Positions 3,296 through 62,952 of a stretch of 64,000 bases of DNA are shown here, one piece after another; within the stretch, counting starts at the first letter, position 1, and the number at the start of each line of letters is the position of its first letter. Below the pieces are notes generated by a model. The model was not told where the DNA came from, did not search any database, and saw only the letters and a list, made by a program, of their open reading frames with translations. The stretch covers positions 56,192 to 120,191 of the forward strand of contig QNGE01001218.1 in NCBI GenBank assembly GCA_008508345.1, given 5' to 3'. Position numbers and translations under genes: made by a program. Origin of the DNA: Paragonimus westermani. Taxonomy: Eukaryota; Platyhelminthes; Trematoda; Plagiorchiida; Troglotrematidae.

Positions 3296-4387
3296 GCACA
3301 CTCCGCGGTAAGAACAGAAATCAAACGGTATTCAAACATACTGTATACCACTGAAATCAGCGTCAACTGCATGGCGATTATAAAGATTACGACAGAAACA
3401 ATCTTATGCACAGACCAGTGGGTGATACTGGTTGATCAGTTAAACTCACAAGATTATCGAATGCTTTGGATTATGTTTACGTGAAAACAGTGTGAAACGT
3501 TAATGTAGAAATTAAGTGGAGGTGGTTAGCAACCGAAGAAGCCCGGATCTGGGTTATCCGCCGAGTTGCTAGTGCAGGTTACGTCAGCGTGTCTGGTTAT
3601 CATTTAGACATGTGAGACCACCCGGTTAGCTACAACGTCATTAATCCCATGACCGAGTGATCAGATCCAAATGGTTGGCCACAACTTTGGATGAATGGTA
3701 TCCAGCTCACCCAATCATTTCGAAAGGCAACTGAACAGAATCGTCTTGTCCTATCCAATCAATAGACTCATGGTCGGGACTTCTCAATTACGTTTAAGTC
3801 ACTGTCTGTGTTGAACCGGCTGAGCATGCTTTAAATATCCACTAGAAGTTTGGGGAGCTAGAGTGACTCAACTCAAATCATCCATACTTGATCATAGCCA
3901 TCACATTCAGATAAACCTTCCGGTTAACCCACTTTGAAAGGAGGCACTAGACACGCGTTTCGCTCTTGTTAGAGCTCGTCAGCCGTGCATATCCCCGACC
4001 GGACCGGAATTCGCTGCTTAAAGCAATCCGATTCCTTGAACTTCCATTAGAAATTCAAAGCGCGCTCAGTTGGATCAATGTAGACGGTAATTTCGACCCA
4101 ACTGTGGAGTCCTGAGCACGAGGTTATCGAACTGACTTAAAAGAGTGAATCCGTTTTATCTTTTTTTCAAAGTGACAAGGCATGCTGAACATACTTCACG
4201 TGAAATTGTGACAGAATTTTTTGATATGATCATTTGGTCATGCTTTTTTGCGGTTGTTTAGAGGTTAGTCCTGCTATTCGTCGTCGCATATTCTGTTCTA
4301 TCAATACACTTCTCACAGCAACTGTAGGCGAACTGGTACATTTAGTAAGAGGCTGGATGACCCGTTAAAATACGATCGGAGAGTTAA
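3296..4387. other. unassigned, holds repeat R1 copy A
   Basis: Apart from the R1 repeat copy, I see no gene, RNA or regulatory element. Confidence 0.45.
3902..3990 (+). repeat. dispersed repeat family R1, copy A
   Basis: One of four diverged copies of the same non-coding sequence in the window (others near 5590, 7158 and, inverted, 24573). Shared landmarks in order are CATTCAGATA, a CCTTCCGG/CTGTCCAG-like block, a TTTGAAAGG/TTCGAAAAG block, then GCTCTTGTTAGAGCTC and a GTGCATATC end. No coding capacity is visible. It is probably part of a longer interspersed element such as a non-autonomous retroposon. Confidence 0.55.
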
Positions 4388-9024: not shown

Positions 9025-9070
9025 TTGATACATGCCGAGTCAGCATTTCGTACGGACTCATCAATACCAA
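9025..9070 (-). ncRNA. decayed hammerhead ribozyme of a PLE
   Basis: Read on the minus strand: stem I strand TTGGTA, core TTGATGA, stem II GT-CCGT-AC, GAA, stem III ATGC/GCAT with a 7-nt loop, then G, then TATCAA, which re-pairs with the first strand (six pairs, one G-U). This is the full hammerhead layout. Two positions are wrong: the core cytosine C3 is U, and the cleavage-site base H17 is G, which is not cleavable. It lies 77 bases after the stop of the adjacent PLE endonuclease, almost the same place as the intact ribozyme near 61.05 kb. It should be inactive. Confidence 0.7.
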
Positions 9071-9147
9071 GTACACATTAATATAAAACGGTGTTTTATC
9101 TCAATTTGGAGGCGGTGGATAATCGGTCGGAGAAGTAGGAAAGGTTC

Positions 9148-9399
9148 TTACATGAAAGGTAGAATGAAGTACACTAACAACTGTTCCCGAACGCACAAAG
9201 TCGAGCAGAGTAGAGTGAATGAGATCGCTTTAGCAAGCCACAAGAACATGAGATTGGAATGAACTAATAAGATTTTGGATCTCCAAGTTGAGTGGTTATC
9301 GTGACCAGTGGTCAGAACGTGGCGTACGACTGCGGACACTGGTCGTCTGCTTGTATCACTGGCATGCAGTAATACGAACTGCTGCATCCACCTGAGCAA
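9148..9399 (-). pseudogene. Penelope-like element, C-terminal endonuclease relic
   Basis: The minus-strand frame ends in RRPVSAVVRHVLTTGH, then KILLVHSN and CVREQLLVYFILPFM. This matches in order the end of the PLE at 60.7-60.98 kb (PVSSVARHVQTTGH, KILLRHSN, CVQKQVFVNLTLPW), the region after the GIY-YIG core. The 3-prime tail is also shared: GATTATCCACC occurs after both stops (9114-9124 complement, and 60984-60994). The YIG-R core itself is not readable upstream, where a stop lies. This is a truncated, inverted copy of the same or a sister element. Confidence 0.78.
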
Positions 9400-9997
9400 A
9401 TGTCACCTTCTGGTGCTTGTTCTCAAACCACATTGTGAGTCACGGAGAGTCAGAAGCATTCATTGTTTACCATCATTGTTCAGCTGAGATCTAGAACCTA
9501 AGTTGTGTTAGATGAGTGCACGCTGGTGAACAGTGTGCATACCATACAACATAAAATGTAACTGAGTGACATGTGTGCTAAATTTTCTACGTTGCAAGTT
9601 TTATCTGTCTGTCAATAATTCTTATTCTATAAGTAAGTATACGGACTGTACCAGCTCTCAGTTCTCTGAATTCTTCATTCAAAATGGTGTGACATGGAAC
9701 AAAGCGGATAACAGAAACCGATCCATAAATAAAGGAAAATGCTTCCTCATACACAAATTATAAATGACCGAACTTGTTGTGATAACCACGTAGTTTGCAC
9801 AGAAAAGCGAGCTTAGTGACTGTCCAGAGTTGTCTCATCAAATTATTTGTGCGGTTAGTTTTACAAATCGAAACAAGATTCAACCAAGTGTGGCAAGTAC
9901 AACGTTTTTATTTCCTCTGTGTGTGGGTTGATAATTCAGAAGTCCAAATATGCCACCAATATTTGTTGCTACTTGTCACTACACTAAACACCCTTAA

Positions 9998-10399
9998 ATG
10001 TCTGTTTCGATTTTGGACACAAGATTTTCCATTACGTACTACAGAAAACCACTTTGGTGCACCAGAATTTCCATGTCAAAGTCTTGGGCGTGACGGCAAG
10101 AACGTGATCGGCTCGACCAATCGGGAGGGACAACCAAACTTAATTAGATCACTTCGCATTGGCTACTTTAACAGAGGAAGTGGTACGGGTTAATTGAGGG
10201 GTGTGAACGGCTTTGCATACGGTGAATCGGGCTAGCGGTCAAATTGGAGTTATATAATGAAGGACAACAGTTACGATTGGCACCATATTCACTAACGTTG
10301 AATCCAACTGAGAATGTCTGGAGCATCGTGAAGACAAGAGTTAAAAGGCAACTGCAGATGCAACACGAGAAAATATTGAACGGTGATCCTCAGGGTGTG
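9998..10399 (+). repeat. left arm of a 402 bp near-perfect inverted repeat
   Basis: Every base of 9998-10399 pairs with the complement of 12148-11747 in register (position sum always 22146). I found one substitution (CTTTGCATA here versus CTTTACATA in the other arm) and no indel. Similarity stops abruptly at both ends. The arm carries the end of a transposase-like frame. Such identity contrasts with the decay of every other repeat here, so the duplication is recent, maintained by conversion, or an assembly artefact. Confidence 0.95.
10244..10399 (+). pseudogene. DDE transposase C-terminal fragment, left copy
   Basis: The frame gives LRLAPYSLTLNPTENVWSIVK then basic KRQLQMQ. The block PYS-x-x-LNP-x-E-x-VW is the signature around the third catalytic acid of Tc1/mariner- and IS630-related DDE transposases, and the Glu is present. 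The similarity ends exactly where the inverted arm ends (10399), after which the frame is unrelated and stops at 10426. Upstream in frame there is a nearby stop, so no intact enzyme exists. Confidence 0.6.
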
Positions 10400-11563: not shown

Positions 11564-11902
11564 CTAACTTCCAGAAAAGAGGAAGCACAAAACCAAGTTG
11601 TGGTTGCTCCGAATACAACATTGTTCGTCCACTGAGAAGACGTGGGTTAACGATTGTGACTTCATCTTTTCACGGTTCATTGCCTGCACACAGTACCATT
11701 CGGGATAATCAACAAAGTTAGCGCAGTGGTCACCTGTGACGTCGTACACACCCTGAGGATCACCGTTCAATATTTTCTCGTGTTGCATCTGCAGTTGCCT
11801 TTTAACTCTTGTCTTCACGATGCTCCAGACATTCTCAGTTGGATTCAACGTTAGTGAATATGGTGCCAATCGTAACTGTTGTCCTTCATTATATAACTCC
11901 AA
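11564..11902 (-). pseudogene. DDE transposase C-terminus, right copy
   Basis: It carries the same LNPTENVWS block as the left copy. Here the frame continues past the arm boundary for about 60 more codons (YDVTGDHCANFVDYPEWYC and on) to a stop at 11564. The continuation resembles the short helical tail that follows the catalytic Glu in such transposases. No ATG begins the frame (it opens on TTG) and a stop lies just upstream, so the N-terminal two thirds with the first two Asp are missing or shifted. Confidence 0.55.
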
Positions 11903-12148
11903 TTTGACCGCTAGCCCGATTCACCGTATGTAAAGCCGTTCACACCCCTCAATTAACCCGTACCACTTCCTCTGTTAAAGTAGCCAATGCGAAGTGATCT
12001 AATTAAGTTTGGTTGTCCCTCCCGATTGGTCGAGCCGATCACGTTCTTGCCGTCACGCCCAAGACTTTGACATGGAAATTCTGGTGCACCAAAGTGGTTT
12101 TCTGTAGTACGTAATGGAAAATCTTGTGTCCAAAATCGAAACAGACAT
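11747..12148 (-). repeat. right arm of the 402 bp inverted repeat
   Basis: Reverse complement of 9998-10399 with one substitution. The right arm is probably the source: its transposase frame runs on into native sequence on the spacer side, whereas the left arm is cut off inside that frame. No target-site duplication is obvious at the outer ends. Confidence 0.95.
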
Positions 12149-16120: not shown

Positions 16121-19100
16121 GTAAGTTGAAACTAAAAGTGATATTACATTTTACACTTCTCGTTTACTCTAATCGTAATTAAACAGGCAATAAAAATCGC
16201 AGAGTGGTTGGTGGAAGAAAAGTTAGGTTTTATGGACACACTCAAATGGCCATTTTGTTTGGGCATAAACACTTTGTTTGCGTAATACTTTCCTTACCAT
16301 TGCGATTAATATTTACCGGAGTGAAAATCGATTAAAAGTTCTTACAATGATCAGTTCGGAAAAACCGTCGATATTGAAGCCAACAATGATATAAGAGTAC
16401 AATCTTTACTACCTGTTTTGATGGCTAGGCCTGGCCCGTTCTTCTTACGTTGAGGGAGCAACGAAACACCAGTTTCCTGGCCCGTTTGTTGACACTTGTC
16501 TACAAGAAGCAGACGCACGAAAGATTGCCTGATCGAACACCTGACTGTCAGCTGAGCTTCATGTACAGGAAGACAGTCGCATAATAACCGAACAACTTAA
16601 AGTTTGTTATACTGAATCAGCCAAACTGAACTGTGTATATCTACCAAGCATCCACCTACTGATAAATATGATATAGTTGCAAAGTTTCCTGAGCTGTTAC
16701 TTGGGCTAGTTTGAATGACTTAGGCTGTGACAGAGATGCAGTGTTCCCTCCGAGACTATGCAGTGTAAATGTTGGAAGCATATCGTAATCATTATATCAG
16801 TTTAATGAACACAAGTGGGTCTGAACTAGTATTTTGCAGACTGCATCATGCCGAGAAATTTGGTCAACTGAATAGGTTTTTGAATAACAAATTTCACATG
16901 ACAGACGATACAAAAACTTCCTCACTGAAGTTAGCACTTTGTAAGTTGGCGTACTTTGTTCGACAAGAACAACCCAGGGACAGTCACTTTGAATGAATTT
17001 TGTGAAACTCTTGGTTTGCAGCCTTCAGAACTGTGAGTCCAATATCCGTAATATTGCTCCTCATGAGCAGCTGGATTCAGCTCCAAACGAATTCTTTACG
17101 GTAAACGTTTATTCCCTTAATGCATCATAACTCAATCATTTCTCAGTTATCCTTATGGGGAAACGTGTCATCTGGCTTGCACGAATTCCAGACTGTTGTA
17201 CTTTCGTCTAGGTACTTCATTTCAGTCTATTCTAAGAAGCTTTCTCTGTTATTGTTCTGGTTTGTCAAAATGACTTCGTTACCTTGTGTTCTTTTAAAGC
17301 ACATTTTAGGTAATCATGATATGAATACAATCACCACCTGCGACACTTCAAAGATATACTGGTATCGGTTACCGCAGAGAAAATTATCACTGATGGATAA
17401 TCTTATTCTCTAGCAAAGTGCGAGTTGCTTATTTTCCGTTGGTTGTAACACAACTCTGAGTTGATACAATGCACCATTTACACTGATTGAAGTTTGTGAG
17501 AACGCCGTCTTTAACAATTACCATGTCGTTCTACTCTGTCAGCTTCAGACGGAATGAAGGCACCACAAAATACATGGGAGACTAACGACGAAACGTTGTC
17601 AAAGGATTTATTTTCTACAGGACATTGAGGAGAGTTCTCGATAAGTAGTCTGACGCGTGTCACCGTTAAGCAATGACCACGTGACAAAATAAATCTCAAA
17701 GCTATGGCGTTTCTGCTCATAAAACGCAAGAACATGATTCCATGCACATATCCTCATCGATCTGGAGAACGATGTTCAGTTTTTAACAGAACAGAAATTA
17801 CACACACGTTGCTCTACGTTAACACTTTGTTTGATGTCATAAGTCGCGAATGTAAAACACGCAGATTGTACAGATCAGTCAAACGGAGAATACTCGGGAA
17901 TGGACAAATACACAATCTCACTGTGTAATCACTAGTTGGGCAAATCGGCACTTGTCTCCAACGGTTAAGGGCCATTAACATCAAACTCTGATAGCGTGAA
18001 CATATTTTGAATGAGCTAAACGGGGTCGATTTGGTGCATTGTTATCATGAGGAACCTAGTAATGGATTATATACAATTTCCAGTAGCTGGATTACCGTTT
18101 CGTCTTATCGTTTATATCAACCCTCCCCCCGGAGAAATGTTTGATAGCCGCCCTGTTCTGCTAACGCAAACATCATTGCAACCGCAGGGGAACCGAACCG
18201 AACTGCGTTCGCAATTACATAGAATTAGCTTTTTCGTGGCTCGCACCGAGCGCGTTGAGCATTCGTATATTTAAGAAACATGACAGACTCTAAATTGTAC
18301 CTGAAAGCATTCGCTAGTTGATCCATCTCAACTTTCAAAATTAGAACTATGCCTTTTTGAGTCATGTAAATCCGCTCAACCTGTTATGAGATTCATATAA
18401 GTCCTTCAGACTAACTGCTAGCTAGTAACGCCTGTAATGTCTATTGTTCAGTCCACAGCTTTTCGGAAGTGCAAATATACGTGGAACCTATAAAGAGATT
18501 TTTGATCGAAGCGTTAAAAACTGGCTTGTTTTCTACATGGTGATTCCCATGACAACTCTGACGATTTTCACGTTTAAACTGTTTTTGTGTAACCGATGTG
18601 AAGAGGAGGAAGAGAAACCAAAGACAATATAGGCGCCGTAATGAGTACATTTCAGAACGCTCAACTACCCTTGAATTTATTCTTATGAGCAAAAGCTGAC
18701 CCAGATGAATAATGCAACTAGGGTTTAAAAAAATCAACATGGTCAGTGTTAGCATAAGTCGGATTACCGTCAACATACCACCTACACAATAGTATTCGGG
18801 ACGTAACTTTCAACCAGTTCTTAAAAACGGACATCAACTGAGGAGCTCAACAGATTGCATACAGCCACGCCGTTTATCCGCCTACAAATGAATCCTTCCA
18901 AAATTAGATCTGGGGTTTTATGTGAGTAATAAAATAGGCTGAATGGCATAATTCCGGCTAAAAATAAAATTACATAGATAATTCAGCTGTTTGTCTAACA
19001 AGGCAGTTTGTAAAAGGGAGCTTAACGTCACTCAAATGCGTGACTTGTGGCTCAACTGTAACGCATTCAAGTTTTTTGCTGATTCAAATGAACACTTCAG

Positions 19101-22100
19101 CAGGGGCGGGAATAAATTTTACCGGAGGCTGTCCACAATCTGTACTAGTCAATAAGCAACTCTATGATAAGTTAGCGACGTACGAAAAACTGGTCTCAGA
19201 GGTACTTCTTTTGTGTAGGTTTCCTGCATAGCTCTCATTTACAATGATATCATGCCGACTAGCTTCATGTGTCCTTATTCTGTTCTAGACATACGACAGC
19301 AGGGTAACGGTACTTGCGATCTTTCTTTTATCCAGGTGTTTGCTCACTTCACTAGTTTCCCAAAATGGTGCCCATTCTCCTTACACATTTCTGCTCGTTT
19401 GTCTTAATAACATCACAGTCTTTATATGGCCTGAGGAATGCCAGGTGCTGCATTACCGTCAGTTATCTCACCGTGAGATAAGGTTGCTGTCTTACAGCAC
19501 AATGGTGTTGGTGAAAATTGGACGCATACTTAGCGTTCAGCCAGCCTGTTACTCTAGCGGATCTGATCCGTTCTCAGAGTTAACTTGTATATACACTTCA
19601 TTAAATTCCTTGAACAGGATTTTGATGTTAAAGCTAAACAGGAAGACATACAGCTTTTTCTGCGTGAACGGAGCAGGCGAAAAACTGTGCATATAACTGA
19701 AACCCTCACTAGATCACATACTCTTACCAGCTGATTGTGAAGGGGACTTACTTAAAGAACAGAGATGCATGACTTTAGTGTTAAGAAGGTCTTTCCTTCA
19801 TATAACACACAGATGATAAGTTGCTAATGACTTCAACAAAATGAAGCAGGGTTCCTACAACACTGCTTATTACTTCACTGGTAGTGTCAGTAAGCATTCA
19901 CAGTGGATTCACAAAGTCGACGTTATTCCTCGAACACTTGCTGAATATGCCCCGTGGGGAATAGACACGTCAGTTCCATCACTGTCTGACTCAACAACGG
20001 CAGTAAGTAATTCGTTGATCACAAGACCAACCTGTATGGAACATTCGGTTCTTTTGCAGAAACTCATCAGCAGAGAGACAGAAAATGCCGAGAAACATTT
20101 ACATTTCCTTTACTCTCGTCAGCTACAGAAATGAAGCTCACATATTACATATAAGTCAAATAGCACAGGACAGTAAACAGACATCTATTATGTATCTGGA
20201 AGTTTAGTTCGTTGAATGGGGGTCTATATGCATTTTTTAAAAGCAATACTACCTACCAAAGCATCCAACCCTAATCTTATTCTTCCGGGAGCGCTAGAAC
20301 TCAACAGAAGATCAAAACAAAAATATGTGCTGGTCCCGATAGCCTGCGTAATAATTTCTGTATGCATTGTGAGCGTTCAATTGCTCGCTGGATGAAACAC
20401 ATTTGCTTTTAAGAAAAGCGCATAGTAAAGGAAGACCGAAGTTCACACACCGGCGAAGGAGTGCAAAAAGTAGTATATTCTGCAGCGTCTCATAGCAAAA
20501 CCTAATCAACCTCTGCACTTGCATTAGAAGAGCGTTCGAAGTAGACCAAATTCAGCAGTTCAGGTAATCAGTATACCCTTGAAGTGTTTCGTGATGACCA
20601 TACTCATGAAAAGGTGAAAAATTCAACAGTATCTGGTTCATGTTGTACACGTAACCTGGTCCATACTTGATTGAACGCTAACTTAACATCATATCACATG
20701 TTCAGGTTAGAATGCGTACGTACGCGACCATTGCTGTTCAAGTATTAAATAATTTTTCACGAAATACTGGTCACGATAATTTCAATTGTTGTCCAATTGC
20801 GCCTGTGTTCTATCTCAGGTCGATTGATGGAAAATCTGTATGAGCCTCAAAACTCTTGGAGTTGGCGAGGTGTGCAATGATGATATCCGTGATGGGTTCT
20901 CAAAAACGGTTGCAGTTTAAGTGAAATGATGTACCGTGGCACTTGGGACGATCATCTAAACACACAGTCAGTATATCCTTCCATACAACAGCAGCATGTA
21001 AAAAGGTATCCGAGCACTGGTTTATCCTGGGCCAGTAGATTATCATTCGGGTCTATCTTCAAAATGACGTTGGACTAAATTTGCTGCTGATTCGGGGTGT
21101 CTAAGTGGCTAGTGGGTATGACAGTTAAAGTATTTCGCTGTAATGTCATGCTTAAAAGGGAACTGTACAAATACCGGTTGCGTTGCAAATTCGGACAAAG
21201 AACTTGTACGGATTTTGGCAACCACAGTGGAAGCTATGAATTGATTCTGATATCCACGATACTGATACAATGGACTGAGAGCAGTTTAACGGATTGCCAG
21301 TGTGACAGTTGGGTGTTGGTGGATCCGCACAAATGCAGCACATACAAAGGGTACTCTGAAGAGAATTCGGATATCGTTTGTTTTTAGTACACTCTCATGA
21401 GTTCAGTCGGAACGCTGGCATCGGCTAGTCTAGAGCAGAATCGAATAAATCCATTGTGCGCCCTGATTACCTGTGTTTCAATGCAAACACAAAGTTCGAC
21501 TAGTCCTTCTGAAAACAGACCTTTGTTACCGGCCCTACTTCTCCAAGGGTTTTACTGAAACTTGGAAAGAATACGGATTGGCGCGCATTTTGACATGCCA
21601 TGAATTAGTTAGCACTGTCTGGAGGTGAATGCTTTGCTGATGCGGTCTTCTGCTAGAGAAAAAAAGAGTAGACTAGTTGTTGTCCGTGAGGATTGCGTCA
21701 ATTCCTGAATACGTAGTTGTCATTATCTGACTGTGATTACCTGGTTTATTCCCTCTCTTTGTATTGTTGACCACTCCTTCGATCACGACTTGTAGTGCCC
21801 ATCTTTGTTACTGTCTCCACTTTCCCATAATTATTCGAAATGCCCTATCACTTATTATACTGACGTTCACAGACTTGATACCTTTTCAAGAGCAGAGTCC
21901 GCCGGTTCTGTTGAATTTAAGCGAGCCCGCCAAAAGCCGTGCTCTTGGAGATCCGGTTATTTCCCATTTGAATCGCAAAACCCACACGCAGAGAATACCC
22001 CGGACGAGCAGAATAGCCAGAGGAAGCATATCAGGACTTTGCACTACGTCAGTATTAAAATATGTGTCTCGTCAGATGAAACAACGAACAATTCAATGTT

Positions 22101-49255: not shown

Positions 49256-50413
49256 TGGCGGCATCCGAATCGGATTAGCCTATCATGGTGACCAAAGCCA
49301 AAGAATGCTTGTGCATAATACACCACAAACGGCTTGCGCTACACCACTATCTGTACTACTCGTATACCACATACCTGATTTACATCCGAACAACGGAGAC
49401 CAGATGTGTGAGTGCAGCAATGTGCGTTAGTCAGATGGTGAGTTGGTATGAAAATGGAACCGTTATTTTAAAAAACGAAAGACAGACTTTAATGGTGACA
49501 TCTAAGCTGAGAAGAAAGACATTGAATACAAAACGCAAGAAGCAGTTCAATACATAGGTACACATTGCCCACTTTAATTAGTAGGAAAAACAAAAACAGA
49601 AATTTGAAGTTAAGCGGGAAAAAAACAAGACGTTCAGCAAGAGTTGCACCAACAAGGCTTACGGAAAGGTAGAAGACACCCAGGTATCTGATAAGGACAG
49701 CTGGTAATGTAACAAACGACAATGGTCGTTGATTCATACGAACGACAGAATAATCATAATTTGTGTAACTTACTTGCACTTAATGTACTCGTAGCCTCTT
49801 CGCCGATGGTGTGTTATGACCTAACAGCCAGAAGAAGCCCGTGAATTCGCAGCCGCAGTCATCGCAACGCCATACAGCCATGCCACCACCACTTATGGTA
49901 CCCACAGTTCCTTCTGCATGCCGATGCTTGTGTTGACGGCCACACAACTGTTGTCCATTGTACCTTCAGACGCCCGTCCGAAGTGTATTCCTCTAGAACG
50001 TCCGGTTCAAGGCTAAGTCTTCCCAAGATCTAACACCGATATCACAAAGCAAAAGGCCTACTTAGATAACATCCTCATCACCAGGACTTCCCTGGCTAAC
50101 TTTCAGCTAGCTGTACAGCTGCTGTTTCGGAATCTGTTCGTTCCCCATCCAAAGGACGTGTCCTAGCTATCGGAGCTGACTGAAGATGAGCGTGAATCTA
50201 ATGCCATACGTGTCCGCTTGACGACGTATCTCAAACTTTGGTAAAATGCTTGATCACCGAATATCCATGATGCATGTTAGACGTAGGAGAAGGAAGGATC
50301 TCGGGCACTACACATTCCGTTGATACAGTGTTCAATTTTTACTGTTGTGCGACAGCGTGAACAGCACCACTGAGCTGTAGGCAGGTAGATTGGTTTTCAC
50401 ACACACACACACG
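49256..50413 (-). repeat. RTE-like tandem duplication, unit 1
   Basis: It begins TGGCGGCATCCGAATCGGAT and matches the next unit in order: a GGAT-TAGC block, an A-rich stretch, CTTCGCCG, CATCGCAACGCCATA and CGTATTCCT...CGTCCGGTTCAA. Spacing to unit 2 grows from about 1160 to 1200 bp along the unit through indels. On the minus strand the part near 49.95-50.1 kb corresponds to the RTE C-terminal frame of unit 2 but is broken by stops. It ends in a short (CA)n run at 50398-50412. Confidence 0.75.
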
Positions 50414-51600
50414 GTTGGCGGCATCCGATTCGGATTAGCTTGTCACAGTGACCGAAGCCAAAGGACGCATGTGCTTAACCATCACCGCAATTGGCATGCG
50501 CTGAGCCATCTGCTGTTCCAAGCACACACCACATATCCAGTGATGTGCCAGTGGGGCCTTTGTGTCTAGCCGGCCAATGCTGGTTATCCAGTTGACTAGC
50601 TAATAAGGAAAGGAAACTCTTATCTCTCGGAAACTAAACAGAGAGAGGCTGCAATGACGAGATCTAAACTAAGAAGAAAGATTTGTGAAGTGTAATGCAA
50701 GATGCATTGCAGTATAGGAGTGCAGGTTAGTGCATCCCACAAAATATGAGGATGAAAAAACGAAATTCTCATTAAACTACGAGAAACCAGACAAACCATT
50801 CATCATACAGTACATCAACAAAGCTGAAGAAAAGAATGGGTAGGAGATTACAGAAACACAGGTTTCTGAAAAGAGGAGCGGATTAATTGTCAACGACCAG
50901 GCTGTTGGTCGATTCAGTCGTTAACAGGAGTGGGATGGATATGCTCATATGACCTACCTGAACCTAACGTACTCATCTTCTCTTCGCCGGCCGTATACTA
51001 TGAGTAGGTTGTTGACCTAGCAATCCCAATCGGCCAGCGTATTCGCGGCCGTACACATCGCAACGCCATATAGTCACGTCATCGCGACCTATGAAACCGA
51101 TGGTTCCTTTGCGTACTGCACACTTCCGCTTGCAGCCGCGCAAATAACTGCTCACTGAATTTTCGGACGCCCGCCCGAACCGTATTCCTCCAGGCCGTCC
51201 GGTTCAACGCCAAATCTTCCCAGCATTTAAAATCAATGTTACAACGTGAAAGACTTACCTGCACAACATCCTGGTATCTTCGCTTCTGACCACCGGGATT
51301 TCGCCCACCTGCTTTTGGTTGTCCGCACAATAGCTGCTTCGGGATACGGTCACCGCCCATCCGACGGCACATACACACACGCAAACGGAAGAACACTGAC
51401 CACCAACAGCAATCAAATTGCAATAGCTATGAACACGCTCGACAACTACACACATACACACTTGTTGAGTGATCCTCATGCGAGTATGTGGTGTCTACGC
51501 ACGTGAGTGACCAAACCCCCAGATGCGTGATACAGCTCCCACTGGAGCACCTCGGTAGATGAAGGCTACAACTAGCCAAGACAAAGGAATGGGAGGATGT
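50414..51600 (-). repeat. RTE-like tandem duplication, unit 2
   Basis: Direct copy of unit 1 at moderate divergence (starts TGGCGGCATCCGATTCGGAT). It retains the readable end of an RTE-type frame. The two units lie head to tail, which suggests unequal exchange or serial insertion rather than two independent random insertions. Confidence 0.75.
51079..51423 (-). pseudogene. C-terminus of an RTE-type LINE polyprotein
   Basis: The minus-strand frame contains RRMGGDRIPKQLLCGQ, GGQKRRYQDVVQVSLSRCNI, WEDLALNRTAWRNTVRAG. The order (R-x-P-K-x-L-x-GQ, GGQ-x-x-RY-x-D-x-x-x-x-SL-x-x-x-NID, W-E-x-LA-x-x-R-x-x-WR) is the conserved tail after the RT domain in RTE-like non-LTR retrotransposons. It is 5-prime truncated as LINE copies usually are, and the frame before it becomes repetitive. 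Readable for about 90 residues without a stop, so not very old. Confidence 0.72.
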
Positions 51601-59589: not shown

Positions 59590-60975
59590 CGTCAATCCAC
59601 TTGTCGCTGTATAGAACGGGATCGGGCAATAATGGTCAGCAATGTGTCCACATAGAAAGGCTGAGTCACATTCGCATCTAAAGCTGTGTGGGAAAATGAA
59701 ACAATGGTACAAAACGACCCGTAATTGCCTAGTTAGACCCTTAGATGTTAAGTCACTTTCCACATATATCCCGCCGTATGAAACGATTGACTACATTTGC
59801 GGGCTCGTTGAAATGAGTCACACTTCGTTGCCACTTCCCACCGACATATTGAAGGAAACTTTGCTGTTCTGTATTGAGAATGTCAGTTTTCGTTTCCTTG
59901 AACAGTCCTACCGTCGAATAGACGGAATAGCCATGGGAAGTCCACTAGGTCCCATCATAGCAGACTTTTTCATGCTAAAAATTGAGCAACAGCTAGCTAC
60001 GGAGATAGAAAACTTGTCATATTACAAGCGTTACGTAGATGACATTAATTTTCAGTCGATCTAAACAGATGATAGACAATCTGGTGCAACGTCTAAAGAA
60101 TTGTCATCCTAATCCAAAGGTCATTTCTGAATTTGAGGTCGGCAACTGCCTGCCATTTCTAGATATCCTAATAAGTCCTTGAGGAGATGGCTCGGTTAGA
60201 AGAGCCGTTTATAGGAAACCCACATGGTCAGGTCAATACCTAAACTTGAGCGGCTTCACACCGATCCAACACAAACGAGCACTAGTAAATACTCTCTTCA
60301 CACGAGCAACGCGAATCTGTACGCCCGACAGCCTCGCGGAGAAACCAGATGTGATTATGTCTGTTCTACAGTCAAATGGTTACCTCAGAAGTTTCATAGA
60401 TAGGCACAGTAGATAAAAATTACCACCCGAAAAGGTGGTCATTGTAGAGAAAACGAAAGTCTACAGAGAGCTACCTTTTAGGGGTGATTATGTCATGTAG
60501 CAAACAGCACAGCGATTAAGAAATTCAATTAAACTAACGTTTAATGCAGCTGAACTCCGTGTAATCGCTCGGACTCAGAAGCTACCAGTGTCTTCAGTCA
60601 AAGGAGATCAGCCTATCGGCGCCATTTCACATTTTGTTTACCAATTTGTATAACTGTGGATAAAGTTAAATAAGCAGAACAGAGAGATGCTTGAGCTCCA
60701 GAATGAAGGAACATTTACCTAAATGGGTACAAAAGTCCGTGTTATCGGAGAATGGTAATGTTGCTGAAACGCGTAAACAGCCAGTTTCCTCAGTCGCTAG
60801 ACACGTCCAGACCACCGGTCACGCTATCGATCCATCTTGTACATTCAAAATCTTGTTGCGTCATTCTAACCCGAGATTCTTACGGTTTGCTGAAGTAGGT
60901 GCAATTAATCGGCTCAAACCAGCTCTCTGTGTTCAGAAACAAGTGTTCGTGAACTTGACCCTTCCCTGGACTTAA
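59590..60975 (+). pseudogene. Penelope-like retroelement: RT core and GIY-YIG endonuclease
   Basis: RT: LDVKSLSTYIP holds the first catalytic Asp (codon at 59744, motif A), DGIAMGSPLGPIIADFFM is motif B, and YYKRYVDDI is motif C with YVDD at 60032-60043. A frameshift follows at once. The next frame continues with PFLDILISP, YRKPTWSGQYLNL and a C-terminal half with several stops. The endonuclease opening reads NCG-stop-S-stop-ISRTERCLSSRMKEHLP, so the YIG tyrosine is a stop and its Gly is Ser. The end PALCVQKQVFVNLTLPW is intact. PLEs reverse-transcribe onto exposed ends using this RT and nick with the GIY-YIG domain; this copy can do neither. Sequence before 59.59 kb is too worn to assign. 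Confidence 0.85.
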
Positions 60976-61031
60976 TGTCTGTTGATTATCCACCCTTCAA
61001 ATCGATTGTATTAAAAAAACCCACCAATGTT

Positions 61032-61070
61032 TGGTACTGATGAGTCAATACGAAATGCTTCCATCTACCA
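61032..61070 (+). ncRNA. minimal hammerhead ribozyme of the PLE
   Basis: Stem I TGGTA (61032-61036) pairs fully with TACCA (61066-61070). Core CTGATGA 61037-61043; stem II GT/AC with loop CAAT; GAA 61052-61054; stem III ATG/CAT with loop CTTC; cleavage base C at 61065. All conserved core positions are met, including the A15.1-U16.1 pair. It starts 57 bases after the endonuclease stop. PLEs of many animals are known to carry such small hammerheads in their terminal repeats, where they are thought to process transcripts, often as dimers because stem III is short. The sequence predicts activity; the two-pair stem II may make the monomer weak. Confidence 0.9.
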
Positions 61071-62952
61071 GTTTTCACGTTTTATCTGCTTTGTTCAAAA
61101 TCAGTTTCATAACCGCGGCAGTCCTATTGTGGATATCGCCGGTAGCCATGGGCAAGAGCTATAGAAAACGGTTTATGTTCAATGGATCTGTTAGATGCAT
61201 GAAACCATCGGGCTGTCCTTTGGCTGTGCTACGAAAAACGGTTTGTGTTGAAGTTGTCATTCGTTCGGACATATCCCCCGTCGCCAACCGTTTGAGTGCC
61301 TCATTCCCGTGAGCGTTTAGGAGATTATGACGAGAACCAGAGAGCAGCAAAACAGTTGACCACGTAGGGCTCCTGGAAGAATTTTGGTAGGGACTACTTT
61401 AGAGAAGGGCAAAATTTCCCCTAGTTTGTTCGTAATCTCGTTAACCGCCTACCTACCACTCTCCATCTCGCTAGTCGTCTACATCCATTTATCCTCTGCT
61501 TTATTCATGACGCATCCATGCAAATCACGTCTACTGGATATCAACATTGCACAATTTCAATTGGTTCCATCACTCATGTTTGAGGTTGAAGCACTGCTGC
61601 CTCGTTCGCTTCCATTCTCTCTGCTTGACGGTTGTACTTGCTTGTCCTTTCTGTTCGTGACTCCTCGTCAAGTTTTGCTGTACTTTCGAAACTTACTCAG
61701 GACTCGAAACGAATTGGGGTTTGGACTTGATTTATACCGCGGCTGCTGTAGCAATAATACCACTGCTCCTAAAACCGAAATTTTGTGATCGTGAAAATCG
61801 AACGCGCTACTCCATGTTCATCCGGTGAACGTTACAGTCGTCTTCTAAGTGGGGAGGTATGCGGCAAGAAAATATGCCCTTGAACGAAAAATAACTCCGA
61901 TCGCTCAGCAGTTGACAGTGATCATCGGCGTATTATCCGATACAGCCCAAACAATTCCGATATGATTCGAAAGTTTAGTGTAGGTTAGAATACATAAAAT
62001 ATGCAAGGCAAGAGCGAAGTAAGGTACACGTATCTTGTAAGCTGCTTTTTCTAGCTAGCCAAACTTCTCACTACCGAGTGAATCAGACTCCTGAATCATT
62101 GGCGCCGGGTGATGTCAGATTAGTAAATCAAGGACTATGGGTAAAGTCTCCTAAGACAACACATTTCCGCAGTATAAACGACCGGGAAGTATCAGGAGTT
62201 ATCGTCTTCCCTGCAGTGAGGCTATTCATTTAGTACCACTTTTTTGTTCTATCGTAACTCCCCATTTTCCTGCCCTTTATGCACCTTCGGGTGATGACTG
62301 TTGTCTGAAGCCAAGACAACTAGAAACATTGGCATTTCCAAGATCGGCACTCCCGGATAAGTTGATCAGCATGCAGTTTTGACAATTACTCGCTCAAATC
62401 TGAAGATCGATGTACGCTGTCTCGCAAACGTGGATCTACCATCCCATCACCGCTGTTCACTTGAATTCACCCTTGGACAATGTCACGGATCAGCAGTTCT
62501 TTCTCAGGGCCTTTAGTGGCACCAAAGTTGAATCTCGTAGTCGAAATGGAGTGGGAATCGTACTCGGTTCAAACAGAAAGTAAATTTGTTTTGGCTGGAT
62601 CTCAGTGAACAGTCGCTTGTGCGCTATCAGATACAACATAGTTTGTATGCCAACGTGAATCAAAATTTTTTTTATTTATTCATTATACTTCCGTAAGCCC
62701 CAACCGACAGCAATTCAGATGCTACCAAAAATGCATTCTATGACGCCCCCGGTGTTCTGAAGCAAACTAAACATTCTGACATCATCATCACAGTAGCGAA
62801 CCATCTGAATGTACAAATTGGTCGTGTTTCACCAAATGGTAAAGCTGTTATGTGGTACGTCTGATGTCCGGGTGTAACGCATATGCGGTAGTGAAAGGTT
62901 GCACCAACTGTCCGCATTTCAGTGTCTATAAACCTCAAGTGTCATATTTCAG
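61071..62952. other. PLE downstream flank, then unassigned
   Basis: The first part could be PLE terminal-repeat sequence, but it does not match the flank of the 9 kb copy. Open frames at 61031-61312 and 61384-61788 (+) are hydrophobic and without motifs; the first begins inside the ribozyme. Confidence 0.4.

Follow-up and report, generated by a model that had tools for sequence, protein, structure and literature searches.

The 64,000-nt window analysed here, a single stretch of Paragonimus westermani DNA, contains a minimal type I hammerhead ribozyme at 61030–61071. This motif is very probably a standard hammerhead of a Penelope-like element (PLE), located at the 3′ edge of a dead, 5′-truncated Paragonimus PLE insertion, in keeping with a picture in which reverse transcription starts internally. 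The presence of hammerheads in PLEs is already known, and the fluke family is a further case. Hammerheads of PLEs were reportedly described by Cervera and De la Pena in 2014 and by Lunse, Weinberg and Breaker in 2017, and relatives of the fluke family may already be among those sequences. The features on which the following analyses draw are listed here, with the evidence for each in parentheses.

59723–60975, + strand: 5′-truncated, dead PLE reading frame, reverse transcriptase (RT) then endonuclease part (tblastn)
60976–61029, + strand: spacer from the endonuclease stop to the ribozyme (7/54 mismatches and 26 gap columns against the family)
61030–61071, + strand: minimal type I hammerhead ribozyme (core reading, descriptor, RAGATH-1 alignment, family model)
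61040–61099, + strand: first 20 codons of the next PLE ORF copy, with its AUG in CUGAUGA (tblastn)
61061, + strand: difference from the family in stem III (alignment to family copies)
61099, + strand: 3′ end of the insertion, at the first of two family sites, after TTTGTTCAAA (family boundary sequences)
9157–9402, − strand: second, more diverged PLE copy (copy B), C-terminal part of the endonuclease (blastn, tblastn)
9025–9071, − strand: hammerhead of copy B in a like arrangement (family model, 31.4 bits, E = 1.3e-5)

The window copy and its hammerhead

The dead PLE frame starts near residue 412 of the 829-aa family protein. Searching with the intact family ORF (tblastn) recovered it as three segments with 79–85% identity, at 59723–60043 in frame 2, 60042–60650 in frame 3 and 60613–60972 in frame 1. 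These include two frame changes and zero, three and two in-frame stops, five in total, so the protein part is indeed dead, as the earlier note had stated. At the nucleotide level, the window copy matches a young family copy at 90.8% over 59742–61099. The endonuclease stop is at 60973–60975, 57 bases before 61032, at the spacing first reported.

The ribozyme had been described as following the PLE, and it is attached to the dead element; however, it is not a separate unit, as it overlaps the first 60 nt of the next ORF (tblastn of family ORF residues 1–21 at 61040–61102, E = 5.2e-6). Because the window copy continues through the ribozyme and 20 codons of the following ORF before stopping at 61099, the ribozyme belongs to the beginning of a next unit that is missing here and is not an appendage of the element in front of it. 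The flanks share no word longer than 4 nt within 40 nt on each side that could represent a target-site duplication. Just past the insertion end there is a 25-nt direct repeat (80%; 61158–61182 and 61228–61252, 70 bases apart). A Pfam "Tom5" match on the frame at 61040–61309 was set aside (E = 0.026, under the cut-off).

Read from the sequence, stem I is formed by 61031–61036 with 61066–61071 (five Watson-Crick pairs plus an outer U-G), and the conserved CUGAUGA and GAA of the core are at 61037–61043 and 61052–61054. Stem II has two pairs, G61044–C61051 and U61045–A61050, closed by the loop CAAU; stem III has three, 61055–61057 with 61062–61064, closed by CUUC. The A15.1–U16.1 pair is present, and position 17, which must not be G, is C (61065), with the predicted cut directly 3′ of it. 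Thus, the complete core, the three stems, the permitted cleavage base and the two-pair stem II described earlier are all found, and the three helices with stem I open give the type I arrangement.

Predicted folding was less favourable. The minimum free energy (MFE) fold of the ribozyme region differs from the hammerhead fold (MFE −7.0, z = −1.13), with the hammerhead about 7 kcal/mol higher in energy. A hammerhead fold other than the MFE is common for small hammerheads; in these predictions, it speaks against strong monomer activity. The ribozyme had also been said to have no visible defect, but alignment to family copies revealed one: the change at 61061 turns the 4-bp palindromic stem III of the family (AUGC-UU-GCAU) into a 3-bp stem, with loss of one pair and of the palindrome. 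For the ten-base stem III arm, the predicted self-duplex weakens from −8.5 kcal/mol in the family to −1.7 in the window copy, which is relevant if PLE ribozymes work as dimers, as proposed in a passage of PMC7761336. The window copy has one ribozyme and no tandem partner. With stem III damaged as well, the window-copy ribozyme is probably inactive or very weak.

The PLE family and the ends of its insertions

We searched for family copies in the 823-Mb assembly that contains the window. A query of 60670–61150 gave 3275 first-look candidates; among the best 40, which were scored, most of those besides the window itself are 87–88% identical and end at query 429–433 (about 61099). With an internal RT query taken from a young copy, we obtained 785 candidates; the best 40 scored at 98–100% identity. 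Judging by these matches, the family is abundant, with young copies. At the protein level, the window endonuclease piece has two P. westermani protein matches, one of 74% over 93% of its length and one of 92% over 60%, and residues 560–829 of the intact family ORF match a P. westermani protein at 100%.

The organization of a whole unit is seen on contig C354, which has two head-to-tail units with a period of 2580 bp, one ribozyme at their junction and another at the 3′ end. In the downstream unit, the ORF is open for 829 codons from an AUG within the catalytic core (A6-U7-G8 of CUGAUGA), and a second in-frame AUG lies within stem III. The motif therefore has the position and context of a PLE-encoded hammerhead, in a pseudo-LTR (pLTR) adjoining an RT and endonuclease ORF, with tandem units in the family. 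It is not a retrozyme, that is, a small non-coding unit of a few hundred bases, since the unit has 2580 bp and codes for 829 aa.

The domain content was assessed with Pfam. RVT_1 matches the intact 829-aa ORF above the cut-off (4.2e-14), and the window piece gives 24 bits (E = 3.6e-5), short of the cut-off of 29.6. Among 22 relatives of the family ORF (E ≤ 0.001), RVT_1 is present in 20, PF26215 in 21, PF28514 in 15 and GIY-YIG (PF01541) in one. Direct Pfam search of the endonuclease part, in both the window piece and the intact ORF, gave no GIY-YIG match. A VYQF..SYIGRTER stretch, read by eye, is what we take to be the GIY-YIG motif, and the putative endonuclease assignment rests on this motif and on the domains of relatives.

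The N-termini of five relatives were aligned with the family protein; Met occupies the second-AUG position in four, simply as the opening residue of the predicted protein in three of these. The Dicrocoelium PLE protein is identical at 9/11 of the ribozyme-coded residues 1–11, at 12/17 of the residues just after the ribozyme (11, 8, 11 and 7 of 17 in four other proteins) and at 38/72 of residues 29–100. From this comparison, made on the protein, the frame probably extends into the ribozyme in Dicrocoelium too, and the raised identity over the ribozyme residues could stem from the RNA, not the peptide. Beyond residue 100, variants shared among family copies favour the third codon position (6/5/15 and 22/15/30 across the three positions), a bias absent from singletons; with just 5 shared variants, codons 1–100 offer too small a number to judge coding. 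Viral contigs had no match to the exact ribozyme pattern and no relative of the P0017 query. Open-licence Paragonimus literature on Penelope or hammerheads, searched by title, included nothing about this ribozyme. Elsewhere in the window, 18963–19232 (− strand) is a possible third PLE-like RT fragment (25% identity to family ORF residues 350–440, E = 1.6e-4).

We then compared insertion ends with the predicted cut, using 30 loci fetched by the internal RT query, of which 26 extend to the ribozyme and four stop before it. None of these 26 has its 3′ end at the predicted cut. Instead, 11 end 34–39 nt past it at site 1 (after TTTGTTCAAA) and 13 end 56–73 nt past it at site 2 (around the end of AATTGTTTCA); one ends 21 nt past the cut, and one continues into the next unit. 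While the list of boundary sequences was limited to alignments passing the cut, the 3′-end counts come from separate sets, and an alignment list without that filter likewise has no short end at the cut. At the 5′ side, an upstream unit adjoins the copy at six of the 30 loci, and three begin inside the ribozyme core (unit bases 91, 92 and 97). None begins at the first base after the cut (unit base 120), the nearest being 97 and 149. In a separate search, the best 40 of 2024 candidates show no 5′ boundary at query bases 48–68, where a cut product would begin at 57; this search ranks longer matches higher, and we claim no clustering from it. Altogether, neither the 5′ nor the 3′ ends of the sampled insertions are set by the predicted cut site.

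Several loci (L043, L045, L046, L057 and L059, and C4630, C4505 and C3969 of G000) have short inverted, ribozyme-containing pieces beside PLE copies. These pieces stop at or near the two 3′-end sites, as if both DNA strands had been extended.

Since the 3′ ends lie past the cut, the template would not be a linear RNA cut at its 3′ ribozyme; an uncut or re-sealed RNA could fit. Given the ribozyme at the unit junction and these 3′ ends, a single insertion carries the ORF tail, the spacer and the ribozyme, along with the opening codons of the following ORF. By analogy with a PLE of Anolis, reverse transcription may start inside the 5′ part of the ORF, on RNA that has passed the ribozyme uncut or re-sealed. 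In the portion of PMC11167929 that describes this element (Anolis carolinensis Poseidon PAc), the hammerhead is at the pLTR-ORF junction with its cut placed 26 bp past the start codon, internal RT begins at two neighbouring sites that correspond to the genomic tails, and both strands are extended. The fluke family is alike in that C17, counted from the A of the AUG, is base 26, and in its tandem copies and two 3′-end sites. It differs in where these sites lie relative to the A of the first AUG (60 and about 85 bases away) and in the placement of the start codon: as given in the same portion of PMC11167929, the PAc ORF starts at stem II, with C3 and G8 preceding the start codon, whereas the first AUG of the fluke family is A6-U7-G8 of the catalytic core and the second in-frame AUG is in stem III.

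Another possibility is that, in live copies, the hammerhead produces unit-length RNA circles by cutting followed by sealing, and that insertions and tandem arrays are copied from these circles, a model put forward for retrozymes. A sealed circle would restore the ORF start and both 3′-end sites, a 3′ end past the cut fits a circle, and arrays are not rare, as the six joined loci among 30 indicate. All six head-to-tail arrays together agree at 154/173 informative sites (random pairs, 0.787), a sum from which two inverted pairs (12/16 and 11/12 agreement) were excluded. However, in two of the six, the neighbours agree at 32/39 and 34/40 informative sites; they differ at several shared variants, so those two arrays are probably not from one circle. 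In vitro work on the Anolis element also counts against circles, with unprocessed RNA being the dominant substrate in the experiments covered by that portion of PMC11167929. Insertion in vitro without need of cutting, likewise reported there, is in line with internal initiation. We consider the circle reading quite unlikely and favour internal initiation on RNA that passes the ribozyme. As a separate observation, one copy (L038, 97.3% identity) is joined to an upstream partial unit that aligned at 84.2% to the same reference; the two agree at 251/256 compared sites, and the low 84.2% may reflect an alignment gap.

Conservation of the ribozyme and recognition of the motif

The earlier note had proposed that the RNA may outlive the enzyme, for instance by processing read-through transcripts. 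In its strong form, this would mean that the host kept or co-opted the ribozyme at this locus after the enzyme died. It draws on a core that is complete although the protein is dead, and on a single change in the 42-nt ribozyme of the window copy vs. 22 in 305 nt of endonuclease. However, the conservation excess is not significant: given the endonuclease divergence of the window copy, 42 nt would carry one change or none with a probability of 0.18. In addition, 41 of 44 distinct copies, mostly young and in part fetched with a ribozyme-containing query, retain an intact core, so its presence calls for no special explanation.

Private mutations argue in the same direction. Over the 44 copies, singletons per aligned cell are about equal in the ribozyme (0.0081), endonuclease (0.0071) and spacer (0.0082) and therefore not rarer in the ribozyme; the values are 0.0158 for the 44 sites behind the ribozyme and 0.0057 for the 12 core sites (3 events). 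Variants common to at least two copies were found at 1/42 ribozyme sites, 23/286 endonuclease sites, 16/81 spacer sites and 1/44 tail sites. This depletion in the ribozyme is not significant (1/42 vs. 39/367 for endonuclease plus spacer, p = 0.10). These patterns are a hint, not proof, of constraint on the ribozyme in the active lineage, and they give no clear sign of ribozyme protection in dead copies. The window copy itself has damaged stem III pairing and has lost the dimer palindrome, and, since its closest full-length genome matches (best 40 of 3275) are 87–88% identical, nothing shows that it was kept in particular. We therefore reject host co-option of the window copy, for which there is no protection signal, and regard it as very improbable.

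Recognition of the motif does not depend on the window copy. A type I descriptor (stem I ≥5, stem II ≥2 and stem III ≥3 pairs) matched one site in the 64 kb, the motif at 61030–61071. Among 150 dinucleotide shuffles, one matched this descriptor and four matched with stem I ≥4; none matched once the stem II and III regions were restricted to short lengths. The Rfam scan of the window gave no match at the gathering level. With lax limits on 60500–61600, RAGATH-1-hammerhead was the sole ribozyme family listed; it aligned the core as expected, with 18.8 bits (E = 3 over 4227 families), far below its gathering score of 56.3. Rfam models presumably expect parts that minimal PLE hammerheads lack.

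We therefore compared the window with a family covariance model, built from 16 other genomic copies and zero window sequences, for which the E-values of the tool are rough. On the whole window, it gave 70.2 bits at the finding (E = 1.7e-15) and 31.4 bits at copy B (E = 1.3e-5), with nothing else below E = 1. Within the family, no pair has changed on both sides in the 16 sequences, and paired cells make up 95.8%, vs. 95.9% in column shuffles and 18–49% for slid structures.

Copy B extends the comparison to a diverged element. It gave 72% over 115 nt in blastn and, with the intact family ORF as query, 45.9% over 85 aa in tblastn, and its next best genome match is 71% (best 40 of 723). Its hammerhead retains stems I–III despite another stem III sequence and length (up to six pairs), although the core is broken, with U at C3 and G at H17. 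RAGATH-1 (RF03152) is the top Rfam ribozyme match for both window PLE ribozymes (18.8 and 19.0 bits).

There is practically no chance that the hammerhead is a random match to a short core motif: stem II has only two pairs, the Rfam score is far under gathering and the loose core pattern is expected about once per window (4 seen vs. a mean of 1.10), but the compact full descriptor occurs in 0/150 shuffles, an equivalent motif sits at the equivalent place in family copies genome-wide and in copy B, and the family-only model gives 70.2 bits, so this reading is rejected.

The window has a third hammerhead at 3944–3988 (− strand), which matches Rfam Hammerhead_1 (type I) at 29.8 bits (gathering 34; E = 2.5e-5 in a 601-nt scan). 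The surrounding sequence is a dispersed repeat, with the best 40 of 1614 candidates, self excluded, mostly 76–83% identical over about query 107–246, and it looks like a Sm-alpha/retrozyme-type repeat unrelated to the PLE. Other repeats in the window include a 402-bp inverted repeat (9998–10399 and 11747–12148, 99.75% identical) around about 1.35 kb. A frame at 11564–11920 (− strand), which begins within an arm of this repeat, presumably resembles a transposase end (LNPTENVW motif). There are also two diverged blocks, repeated in order about 1.2 kb apart (49256–50075 and 50416–51272; 79% over 87 nt and 70% over 241 nt).

Relation to known hammerheads and possible roles

Type I hammerheads occur in mobile repeats of animals, flukes included, according to sections of PMC6155905 and PMC7229834. 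Metazoan retrozymes and Sm-alpha of S. mansoni are small non-coding repeats with canonical stems, from which the PLE finding differs. The closer comparison is with PLE hammerheads, which sections of PMC7761336 describe as minimal type I ribozymes in the pseudo-LTR, in tandem and with possible dimer action; the minimal form likewise appears in a section of PMC6155905. The fluke family is alike in the minimal type I form, pseudo-LTR place and tandem units, and differs in its own host and sequence, the two-pair stem II and the palindromic ten-base stem III arm. In its core alignment, it also resembles the RAGATH-1 hammerhead. A passage of the review PMC7761336 calls the role of the PLE hammerhead unknown.

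Where a live transcript spans several units, adjacent ribozymes may associate via the palindromic stem III and act as a cleaving dimer. Alternatively, cutting in live copies may be helped by the PLE protein: for the Anolis element, the part of PMC11167929 on cleavage describes protein-assisted cutting and none without protein, and no RNA-seq reads starting or stopping at the cut site. To the extent covered by that part, these two Anolis results weigh against routine cutting in the animal. In either case, cutting would take both AUGs off the ORF.

Both candidate AUGs are upstream of the cut and no sampled insertion starts or ends at the cut, which suggests one further role. The ribozyme may be a start-codon switch, not an end-maker, with protein-aided cutting that would shut off the element's own translation and split mRNA from template RNA. 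We offer this tentatively and with low confidence; if true, the PLE protein would stop its translation by helping its own RNA cut itself.

The single window copy itself is of little weight, and it is the family-level ends that matter. Because the family is abundant, with young copies and at least one intact ORF, its genomic insertion ends can be read. As the cut defines neither sampled end and the ribozyme overlaps the ORF start, the options for the role of the ribozyme in this fluke family are narrower.
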